This document shows, in pieces, positions 23,865 through 38,396 of a stretch of 64,000 nt of DNA. This DNA is from Oharaeibacter diazotrophicus (GTDB lineage Bacteria > Pseudomonadota > Alphaproteobacteria > Rhizobiales > Pleomorphomonadaceae), in assembly GCF_004362745.1 (NCBI RefSeq), contig NZ_SNXY01000006.1, positions 744,001 through 808,000 of the forward strand. The letters are read 5' to 3'. Position 1 is the stretch's first letter. Every line of letters begins with the position of its first letter. Below the pieces are notes generated by a model. That model was given only the letters and a program-made list of their open reading frames with translations. It had not been told where the DNA came from and did no database searches. The translations under genes were made by a program, and so were the position numbers.

Positions 23865-25046
23865 TCAGGTGCTGCGCAGCAGCCGCGGGCTCAGACCCTC
23901 CCGCATCATGAGCTTGCGCAGCGGGCCGACGTCGCGGGCGAGCTGGAGCAGAACGGCGCGGCCGACCTGGACCGGCAGGAAGTCGGTCAGCAGCGAGCGG
24001 TTGAGGAGGTCGACGCCGGTGGTGCGGGTCCACACGTCCGACCGGCGCGCGGCGGCATAGCGCTCGCCGATCGTCTCGGCGGGAAGCCCGCCGCCCGTGC
24101 GGGCGCGGCGGACGATTTCGGCGAGCGCGGCGATGTCGCGGATGCCGAGGTTGAGGCCCTGGGCGCCGATCGGCGGGAAGGCGTGGCAGGTCTCGGCCAC
24201 CAGCACCACCGGCCCGCGGGCGAGCGCCTCGGCGGAAAGGCCCGCCATCGGCCAGAGCTGGCGCGGGCTCGCGACCGTGAAGCGGCCGAGCATGGAGTGG
24301 GCCCGGCGCTCGAGGTCGGCGGCGAGCGCGTCGTCGGAAAGCGCGTTCAGGGCCTCGGCGACGGCAGGCTTCTCGATGCAGACCAGCGCCGAGCGCCGAG
24401 CCGCGAGCGGGACCAGGGTGAACGGGCCGGTCTCGGTGTGGAACTCGGTCGAGGTGTCGAAATGCGGCGCGGTGTGGTCGAGGTTCAGCACCAGCGCCGT
24501 CTGCGGATAGCTCCAGGTCTTGACCGCGATGCCGGCGGCCTCGCGCACCTTCGAGCCGCGGCCGTCGGCGCCGACGACCAGCCGCGCCGTCACCGTGCGG
24601 TCGTCTGCCGTGACGAGTTCGGGGCGCGGGCCGGCGAGGTCGAGCCGGTCCATCGTCGCCTCGACGCGGCGGATCCGCCCGTCGGCGGCGACCGCGGCGG
24701 CGAGGCCCTCGGTGAGCGCGGCGTTGGCGACGTTCCAGCCGAAGGCGTCGAGGCCGAGCTCGCTGGCGTGGAAGGCGATTTCCGGCGCCCGCACCAGCCG
24801 GCGCGTGCCGTCGACCAGCCGCATCGTCTTCAGCGGCGCCGCCCGGTCGGCGACGCGGTCCCAGCCGCCGACGGCGCGCAGCACCTCGACCGAGCCGGCG
24901 AACAGCGCCGTCGTCCGATGATCGGCCGGCGGCGCGGGCGGCGCCACCAGCGCCACCTCCGCCCCCGCGGCCGACAGCGCCAGCGCCGCGGTCAGCCCCG
25001 CAGGCCCGCCGCCCACCACCGCGATCTCGACGTCGATCGTCCCCAT
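23865..25046 (-). CDS. UbiH/UbiF/COQ6 family FAD-dependent hydroxylase
   Basis: This 393-residue flavoprotein monooxygenase probably hydroxylates the ubiquinone ring. The N-terminal dinucleotide site is VVGGGPAGLTAALAL, and the second FAD motif GADGRGSKVREAAG is intact. The third motif, usually GDAAH, reads VAETCHAFPPIGAQGLN, so the ribityl-binding aspartate position is a glutamate. The ATG at 25046 gives the normal length; earlier codons run into the repeat region. Which ring position it acts on cannot be read from sequence. Confidence 0.85.
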   Translation of the reverse strand: MGTIDVEIAVVGGGPAGLTAALALSAAGAEVALVAPPAPPADHRTTALFAGSVEVLRAVGGWDRVADRAAPLKTMRLVDGTRRLVRAPEIAFHASELGLDAFGWNVANAALTEGLAAAVAADGRIRRVEATMDRLDLAGPRPELVTADDRTVTARLVVGADGRGSKVREAAGIAVKTWSYPQTALVLNLDHTAPHFDTSTEFHTETGPFTLVPLAARRSALVCIEKPAVAEALNALSDDALAADLERRAHSMLGRFTVASPRQLWPMAGLSAEALARGPVVLVAETCHAFPPIGAQGLNLGIRDIAALAEIVRRARTGGGLPAETIGERYAAARRSDVWTRTTGVDLLNRSLLTDFLPVQVGRAVLLQLARDVGPLRKLMMREGLSPRLLRST

Positions 25047-25148
25047 GGCACCGCTCCGGATGTTCACGCCGTTGTTCTGGCGCGGGCGGGCCGGTTCGGC
25101 AAGGCGGGTGCGACGCGGACAGGGCACTCGCCGGACGTTTCTATTCAT

Positions 25149-25192
25149 CCTTCCCCTCAGGGGAAGGTGGCCCGAAGGGCCGGAAGGGGTCG
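25149..25192 (+). repeat. REP-like two-hairpin repeat, copy A
   Basis: Stem 1 is CCTTCCCC/GGGGAAGG with loop TCA; stem 2 is GGCCC/GGGCC with loop GAA; the unit ends GGAAGGGGTC. It has the same layout as copies C and D at 37.8-38.3 kb but different stem sequences. It faces copy B. Confidence 0.75.
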
Positions 25193-25275
25193 TCTTCGTG
25201 GGTCGGGCCAAGCACGTTTTGGACGAAATGGAGCCTCGTTCAAATTCAAAACGGGCAGGCTGACGGGAAGAAGGG

Positions 25276-25325
25276 CGACCCCTCCCCCTCGCTTCGCTCG
25301 GCCCCTCCTCCCCTTGAGGGGAGGG
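25276..25325 (-). repeat. REP-like two-hairpin repeat, copy B
   Basis: Read on the minus strand, stem 1 is CCTCCCC/GGGGAGG with loop TCAA. A weaker second hairpin follows around CGAGCGAAGCGAG (it needs tandem G-A pairs), and the unit ends GGGGTCGC. It is inverted relative to copy A, with the GGGGTC ends facing each other. Confidence 0.72.
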
Positions 25326-25379
25326 ATGGAAGGCCGCTCCAAGCGATCGCCCTGGCGACGCGGATGCCGCTCGCGCCCC

Positions 25380-26822
<1,443 letters not shown>

Positions 26823-37764: not shown

Positions 37765-38220
37765 TTATCCCTTGGGTTTTCGACGCGGGAGGCGGGAGCC
37801 GCTACCCTCCCCCTTGCGGGGAGGGTCGACCGCCGGAACGGCGGGCGGGGTGGGGTCGGCGCCGTGCTCCACGATCTTTTGGAAGATTGTGTCGAGAACC
37901 CCGTCGAGATTCTCGGTGAGTTCGTTGTTCCAGAAACGCAAGACCTCGAAGCCGCGACTCTCGAGCCACGCGTCGCGGACACGATCCTTCGCACCGTCGT
38001 CGTGGCCATGGTGATCGCCGTCGAGCTCGATCACCAGCCGCCCGGCGAGCCAGGCGAAGTCCGCGATGTAGGGTCCGATCGGCGCCTGCCGCCGAAAGTT
38101 GGCGCCATACGGGCGCAGGTCCCGCAGTTTGGTCCAGAGCAGGACCTCGTGCCCCGTCATGTCCGCGCGCAGACGCCTCGCCCGGTCTCGCGTGACGGAG
38201 TCGATCGAGGTCCGCGGCAT
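37765..38220 (-). CDS. DUF559 (PD-(D/E)XK-like) endonuclease-domain protein
   Basis: This 151-residue protein has the DUF559 domain at about residues 10-120: MTGHEVLLWTKLRDLRPYG, FRRQAPIGPYIADFAWL, LVIELDGDHHGHDDGAKD and FEVLRFWNNEL. The IADF...VIELDG pattern fits the restriction-endonuclease-like fold. Related proteins are widespread in this order but have no established role. The last ~30 residues (PPAVPAVDPPRKGEGS and on) are not part of the domain: they are the translation of repeat copy C. The gene sits between pdhC and lpdA and is bracketed by inverted repeats C and D, so it looks like an insertion into the pdh operon that keeps the reading direction. Confidence 0.85.
   Translation of the reverse strand: MPRTSIDSVTRDRARRLRADMTGHEVLLWTKLRDLRPYGANFRRQAPIGPYIADFAWLAGRLVIELDGDHHGHDDGAKDRVRDAWLESRGFEVLRFWNNELTENLDGVLDTIFQKIVEHGADPTPPAVPAVDPPRKGEGSGSRLPRRKPKG
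37804..37857 (+). repeat. REP-like two-hairpin repeat, copy C (inside DUF559 3' end)
   Basis: Stem 1 is ACCCTCCCC/GGGGAGGGT (9 bp, loop CTTGC); stem 2 is CCGCC/GGCGG (loop GGAAC); then GGGGTGGGGTC. It overlaps the 3' end of the DUF559 gene and encodes its tail. It is inverted relative to copy D. Confidence 0.82.
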
Positions 38221-38263
38221 CGCCAATCCCTCTCGGAAGAAGTCACCGGCTCGCGGGTGGAAG

Positions 38264-38316
38264 CCACCCCACCCCGGAATGCTGCGCATTCCGACCCTCC
38301 CCGCAAGGGGGAGGGT
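38264..38316 (-). repeat. REP-like two-hairpin repeat, copy D (upstream of DUF559)
   Basis: Stem 1 is identical in sequence to that of copy C. Stem 2 is GGAATGC/GCATTCC (7 bp, loop GCA on the minus strand), entirely different from copy C yet perfectly paired; then GGGGTGGGG. It lies 43 bp upstream of the DUF559 start, between it and pdhC. Confidence 0.82.
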
Positions 38317-38396
38317 ATTCGTGTGCGGCACCGGCGCGGCCGGAACTCCGAGAGGATCCCCGCCGGGCGAAACGTCCCCGTCCCGCCCTCGCCGGC

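Follow-up and report, generated by a model that had tools for sequence, protein, structure and literature searches.

REP-like repeats of the Alphaproteobacteria, and triplex repeats of the BoxC type, have long been catalogued without a dedicated enzyme. The CGTC-tagged REPs are described as having no transposase of their own (Di Nocera et al. 2013, PMC3733652), and in the main text of the study that describes the BoxC/PIT triplex motifs (Holder et al. 2015, PMC4666352) no partner enzyme is named; neither 'endonuclease' nor 'Vsr' appears in it. The triads of the antiparallel purine motif are given there as GGC and A(T)AT, and the triplexes are described as stable in vitro, whereas their stable existence in vivo found no support. 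The same authors tie such motifs to genome instability, invoking repair, and cite PIT elements as having neither promoter nor terminator activity. REPINs, the doublets formed by REP sequences, are associated with RAYT (Y1/HUH) transposases (Bertels and Rainey 2011, PMC3116915). In Caulobacter, the DUF559 protein VsrA has been described as a putative repair endonuclease that causes SOS in one mutant background (PMC12907096).

The window, that is, the whole stretch of 64,000 nucleotides of the Oharaeibacter diazotrophicus genome that was analysed, contains two pairs of facing two-hairpin repeats, A/B and C/D. The A/B pair lies between the start of one minus-strand gene (ATG at 25046) and the 3' end of another (25380–26822, minus strand), which, from their translations, we take to be a ubiH-like FAD monooxygenase gene and ntrC, respectively. 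Unit A (25149–25192, plus strand) consists of a G/C-rich stem 1 (25149–25167), made of a pyrimidine arm (25149–25156), a loop and the purine arm GGGGAAGG (25160–25167), followed by hairpin 2, GGCCCGAAGGGCC (25169–25181), which is variable with its pairing kept and would form the loop of a putative triplex, and by the tail GGAAGGGG-TCG (25182–25192), whose first eight bases repeat the purine arm exactly in mirror image. In unit B (25276–25325, minus strand), stem 1 occupies 25325–25307, hairpin 2 is of the CCGAGCGAAGCGAGG type and the mirror tail GGAGGGG lies at 25285–25279. The stems start with CCTT in A and CCCT in B, and the GGGGTCG ends of both tails point inward across an 83-bp core (25193–25275). 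Units C (37802–37858, plus strand) and D (38262–38318, minus strand) are class I repeats on either side of a DUF559 (PF04480) gene (37765–38220, minus strand; conserved domain at about 37873–38190), with C on the 3' side, where the DUF559 frame reads through it, and D on the 5' side. When the isolated units were folded as DNA, both hairpins formed in A (z −3.15), C (z −3.67) and D (z −4.63), and did not in B (z 0.09).

The sequence-only reading had proposed that A and B share the architecture of C and D (G/C-rich stem, variable second hairpin, GGGGTC end), face each other in inverted orientation and enclose a core of 83 bp. All of this was borne out, with the refinements that B does not form both hairpins when folded alone, that the tail mirrors the purine arm and that the element itself runs about 25–30 bp past both hairpins. 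The further proposal of a single repeat family holds for the layout, which is one and the same, but not for the class, A and B belonging to class III and C and D to class I.

A 251-bp query comprising A, core and B retrieved six further copies from the genome, with 78–83% identity over most of the query. When the seven copies were aligned with 100 bp of flank, identity was high across approximately 25117–25354 and dropped to 0.35–0.54 outside, and therefore the outer inverted repeats, which reach about 25–30 bp past the hairpins, belong to the element. The left one (25117–25147, plus strand) is of the GGGC-A-TCGC..CATTCAT type and has diverged in the A/B copy, and the right one spans 25326–25354. 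The whole element, assigned to subtype IIIa, thus measures about 235 bp (25117–25354, plus strand). Given the six other copies at 78–83% identity, A-core-B is a dispersed non-autonomous element and not a scar. The stem structure of A and B is also far above chance: on each strand, the genome contains CTCCCCN{2,8}GGGGAG 149 times vs 2 for the reversed-pattern control, and TTCCCCN{1,6}GGGGAA is present 19 times vs 0 for the reversed pattern.

Units were surveyed in stretches of contig C6 (1.82 of 4.99 Mb) chosen for holding an exact palindrome, so that decayed single units are under-counted. Among the 103 units (class I, 50; class II, 33; class III, 20), 74 formed 37 tail-facing pairs, of the same class in 36 of 37. 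Centre-to-centre spacing was 105–157 bp in class I, 91–120 bp in class II and 134–160 bp in class III, with C-D as the sole long pair (491 bp). Orientation alternates, 57 of the 63 pairs of adjacent units within 350 bp being inverted. The two arms differed in the second hairpin or the tail in 34 of the 36 same-class pairs, which gives the doublet a distinct left and right end. A pattern scan of the chosen stretches found 13 class III doublets with at least two core subtypes. The earlier suggestion that A-B is a non-autonomous unit is supported by these figures, as inverted doublets are the commonest form in the C6 stretches, copies of the A/B subtype have a conserved core and each class keeps to a narrow range of spacing; the outcome that would have spoken against it, mostly single copies at no regular spacing, did not occur.

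At G000:C6:488483–489120 and 1751171–1751802, class I doublets are arranged in tandem, with a period of about 205 bp. In one other genome (locus L208, G058), the 3' end of ntrC is duplicated downstream of the gene as an 87-nt copy with one mismatch, with a single repeat unit between the ntrC end and the copy and a full doublet past the copy; this arrangement is a rearrangement built on these repeats. At the A/B site itself, a comparison of the ntrC neighbourhood across 20 genomes of the family showed the ubiH-like gene beside ntrC in two relatives only, in diverged form; one relative has an 89-bp repeat-free gap at the site, next to a gene of no more than 55% identity, and the comparison yielded no clean empty site among these relatives. 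No target-site duplication was detected (3.30 vs 3.30 in swapped flanks).

The GGGGTCG tail is best viewed as a third strand that mirrors the purine arm. The mirror is complete in A (8/8, GGGGAAGG by GGAAGGGG), B (7/7) and C and D (8/8 each, with T opposite A). Stem and tail also change together. In class I, a four-G stem occurred with a T tail in 32 of 32 cases and a three-G stem with an A tail in 7 of 7 (p 6.5e-8), with 7 four-G units with another tail and 4 units with another stem set aside; in class III, 13 units had a double A in both stem and tail and 3 a single A in both, with no cross cases (p 0.0018; 4 units with another tail set aside). Near DUF559, exact third-strand matches were counted as mirror in 192 of 471 cases and as direct in 115 of 471, and in 55 and 40 of 196, respectively, in the O. 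diazotrophicus genome. Direct, same-direction matches are frequent because the tracts are G-rich, and the co-variation is therefore the stronger evidence for the mirror tail. Hairpin 2 varies yet keeps its pairing, with mean stems in real and chimeric sequences of 3.58/2.32, 4.86/3.58 and 3.80/2.00. Dispersal, pairing, polarity, mirror tail and stem–tail co-variation can all be read from the repeat sequences as properties of the unit.

Since the tail mirrors the purine arm, the units match the BoxC/PIT intrastrand-triplex motif with hairpin 2 as its loop, and A, B, C and D each have the pyrimidine arm, the purine arm and the antiparallel purine third strand of that motif. The second loop, of 14 nt in A and longer in B, exceeds the 1–6 nt of the ITxF loop rule. 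The A/B layout is thus that of a purine-motif intrastrand triplex, the triplex itself being putative.

The gene between C and D matches PF04480 with 117.1 bits (Pfam cut-off 20.6; E 4.3e-34). An AlphaFold2 model of its product (mean pLDDT 82.9) resembles 3hrl (Z 14.1), I-Bth0305I (Z 12.7) and Vsr (Z 9.8 for 1cw0, and 9.4), and the residues D54, E65, D67 and H71 are invariant across 59 sequences. From the modelled fold and the conserved acidic and histidine residues, the protein is predicted to be a small Vsr-like PD-(D/E)XK nuclease. The genome holds two DUF559 genes, the second of which (DUF559-2) is located between two genes that, from their translations, are presumably pheS and pheT, and has class II repeats at its 3' end only. 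In this genome, no DUF559 gene is framed by class III (A/B-type) repeats.

DUF559 genes near pheS/pheT, mostly with class II-type repeats, were seen at nine loci in several families, as if fixed there long ago, and another DUF559 gene with class I repeats occurs near lpd in four genomes. The domain is rare on plasmids, with 36 matches among 72,556 records, at less than 60% identity, and a phage collection gave 2 weak matches. A partner gene that is vertically kept and rarely found on plasmids is a RAYT-like trait, and DUF559 shows it, the order pheS-DUF559-pheT recurring in several families. On two cyanobacterial plasmids, DUF559 adjoins DUF1156 genes.

Repeats are concentrated at the borders of DUF559 genes. 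Of 80 loci from other genomes, 79 were usable (one being too short), and exact inverted repeats of at least 15 nt lay across DUF559 in 35 of them; mock positions within these loci gave 1 of 567, and swapped flanks 10 of 237. A further set of 30 loci of the order, with 300-bp flanks, had such repeats in 9 cases vs 6 of 434 mock positions. With two weak family matches left out, a palindrome was located within 350 bp of DUF559 in 106 of 121 loci and on both sides in 44, sharing its class across the gene in 40 of these 44. Among the 61 of 80 loci with full flanks, a repeat lay within 350 bp in 55 (both sides in 24) vs 11 of 334 mock positions (both sides in 0), and repeat density peaked sharply at the DUF559 gene. 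The 18 loci from the plasmid collection (of the 36 matching records), which span Deinococcus, Neisseria, cyanobacteria, gamma- and alphaproteobacteria, had inverted repeats of at least 15 nt in 8 cases vs 1 of 72 swapped flanks, and at several further loci of that collection hairpin repeats of the same layout stand beside DUF559 in Deinococcus, Neisseria and cyanobacteria. No G/C repeat was found at two E. coli DUF559 loci. In E. coli KE47, where the DUF559 gene has no G/C repeats, its 5' flank contains a perfect hairpin with 19-bp arms of quite unrelated sequence.

On the DUF559 tree, repeat class changed 23 times vs 47.1 after shuffling, and 22 times vs 36.5 after thinning at 70% identity; repeat class thus follows the DUF559 lineage. 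Across 30 loci, genomes with a class IV repeat at the DUF559 gene held more class IV palindromes (p 0.0016), and in the relative G260 one DUF559 gene has a class III array directly upstream, on its 5' side only. Repeats are so consistently found beside DUF559 that it is the best candidate for spreading them.

Repeat load was compared across the 297 genomes of the order, 151 of which contain DUF559, a common domain of unknown function. The median number of palindromes was 38 in the 131 genomes with a strong DUF559 match and 1 in the 146 with none (p about 1e-37; twenty genomes with weak matches left out), and the direction was the same in 17 of 20 families holding both kinds and in 19 of 23 genera. 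A reversed-pattern control gave means of 3.1 with DUF559 and 1.7 without, a slight yet significant difference, and the contribution of base composition is therefore small at most. A second pattern, which was derived from the DUF559 flanks of other genomes, was present at least five times in 64 of the 131 genomes vs 4 of the 146 (p about 6e-23). In the sister genus, the A-B unit is matched 81 times in G260, which has two DUF559 genes, and not at all in another genome, which has no DUF559. There are exceptions, namely eight DUF559-free genomes with at least 20 palindromes and nine DUF559 genomes with fewer than five. The E. coli control genome has no DUF559; for E. coli K-12, 23 BoxC motifs are given by Holder et al. 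(PMC4666352). The link is thus one of association: repeats flank DUF559 genes and repeat number follows DUF559.

These data make it fairly probable that A-B belongs to a REPIN-like system in which a Vsr-like endonuclease (DUF559) takes the place of the RAYT as the partner that mobilizes the repeats. The DUF559 protein would recognize its cognate end, folded as a hairpin or triplex, while that strand is single, as on the lagging strand, and would cut there; subsequent repair or template switching would yield further doublet copies. C-D would be a unit that includes the gene for the enzyme. As the genome holds no DUF559 gene framed by class III repeats, A-B may be a unit served in trans or the leftover of an earlier enzyme. 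Several points count against this mechanism: the data contain no transposition or excision event, no target duplication and no clean empty site, DUF559-2 has repeats on one side only, the eight repeat-rich genomes without DUF559 and the nine repeat-poor ones with it are exceptions, as are the two E. coli loci, and BoxC motifs are present in K-12 although the E. coli control genome is free of DUF559. A broader proposal, which we advance tentatively and hold at somewhat less than even, is that of a widespread mobile-DNA system unlike known transposons, in which stand-alone Vsr-like DUF559 proteins read polar triplex-forming hairpin ends and thereby generate the REPIN-like doublets of Alphaproteobacteria; the BoxC/PIT/triplex repeats of Neisseria, Deinococcus, cyanobacteria and others would be part of the same system.

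A correlation between DUF559 and repeat load would also be expected if DUF559 were a repair-type nuclease that resolves or tolerates triplexes or cruciforms at repeats spread by slippage or by another enzyme, the gene being kept and framed because repeat-rich genomes need it. The Vsr-like fold of the model, the link to instability and repair drawn by Holder et al. (PMC4666352) and the description of VsrA as a putative repair endonuclease (PMC12907096) are in keeping with such a role. It does not readily account, however, for the inverted, class-matched repeats at the borders of the gene or for the agreement between repeat class and DUF559 lineage, and we regard it as unlikely.

A terminator, an RNA-processing site or a structural DNA element without mobility is less probable still. 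The A/B pair lies between two same-strand genes, and as RNA it can fold as a whole into one long hairpin (−104.5 kcal/mol, z −5.1). A terminator was nevertheless rejected, as no terminator-like site was found at A/B; PIT elements, in the account cited by Holder et al. (PMC4666352), show no promoter or terminator activity, and seven dispersed copies with a conserved core point to spread. Searches against Rfam returned nothing at the gathering score within the window and sub-threshold matches only at the A/B locus. Unit B (25279–25327, minus strand) resembles Rfam whalefall-1 (19.8 bits, cut-off 37), a family that may likewise represent DNA repeats of this type and not an RNA gene.

Mobilization of an ordinary REPIN by a RAYT (Y1/HUH) transposase seems very improbable. 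Inverted doublets, intergenic sites and tandem arrays do resemble those described for REPINs (PMC3116915). However, Y1_Tnp (PF01797) gave 0 matches at E≤0.001 in the O. diazotrophicus genome, and among the 297 genomes, 46 of which carry it, it had no effect on repeat load (p 0.41), the median number of palindromes being 1 in genomes with Y1_Tnp and no DUF559 and 38 in those with DUF559 and no Y1_Tnp; on both grounds a RAYT partner was rejected. The GTAG tag is, moreover, absent beside the palindromes of A and B and in the alignment of 13 class III doublets. The REPIN analogy drawn from the sequence alone therefore survives for the inverted doublets and fails for the partner, as it is DUF559, and no RAYT-type gene, that tracks the repeats here. 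Least probable of all is the other earlier suggestion, that A-B is the scar of a C-D-like unit after loss of its DUF559 insert, since, for all that orientation and layout match those of C-D, the 83-bp core belongs to the unit and is conserved in seven copies at different places, and A/B are class III and C/D class I.

The repeats themselves are of known kinds, REP-like doublets and BoxC/PIT triplex motifs; the partnership between DUF559 and repeats was not found in literature searches of open-licence papers. If the proposed partnership is true, a single small protein and a single oligonucleotide would suffice to test how a large class of intergenic repeats in bacteria originated, and REPIN-like elements would have a second, non-HUH route to persist in genomes.

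Compared with the systems described previously, the A/B repeats resemble the CGTC REPs (Di Nocera et al. 2013, PMC3733652), which are likewise common in Alphaproteobacteria and described as prevailing as head-to-head dimers with frequent heterodimers, but differ from them in stem composition and tag, the sequences being distinct; neither A nor B has the CGTC tag with an 8–9 bp stem and A-T in its first two pairs. Among enzymes, Caulobacter VsrA (PMC12907096) belongs to the same Pfam family as the C-D gene, whereas it is presented as a protein of the mismatch-repair type with a link to cytosine methylation, and flanking palindromes are unmentioned in the text available. I-Bth0305I shares the Vsr-like catalytic fold in a mobile-element enzyme (VIA Z 12.7), a likeness of fold only, and the match is to its catalytic domain alone.

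With BoxC/PIT (Holder et al. 2015, PMC4666352), the units share the pyrimidine arm, purine arm and antiparallel purine third strand with the same triads, and the formation of inverted pairs that always join two types (5/5 in E. coli K-12). High numbers of these motifs are reported for Neisseria and cyanobacteria, two groups whose DUF559 loci carry such repeats. The second loop here, in contrast, is mostly 11–18 nt long and forms its own hairpin, whereas the ITxF search used loops of 1–6 nt. With REPIN/RAYT as described by Bertels and Rainey (2011, PMC3116915), A-B shares the prevalence of inverted doublets, two inverted REPs being the main form in the C6 stretches, and their intergenic, clustered location, as well as a nuclease gene flanked by its cognate repeat, with a repeat class specific for each gene; flanking by the prevailing repeat class of the genome, a trait of RAYT-like partners, is shown by DUF559 with exceptions. 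The differences are that no RAYT (Y1_Tnp) gene flanked by the repeat occurs in the O. diazotrophicus genome, that the doublet arms are unlike each other and have a mirror purine tail in place of a GTAG tag, and that the partner would be a Vsr-like PD-(D/E)XK nuclease instead of an HUH tyrosine transposase. A resident gene that stays at fixed sites, seldom occurs on plasmids, has its own repeat class on its borders and is accompanied by many gene-less doublets is the RAYT/REPIN pattern with another fold.
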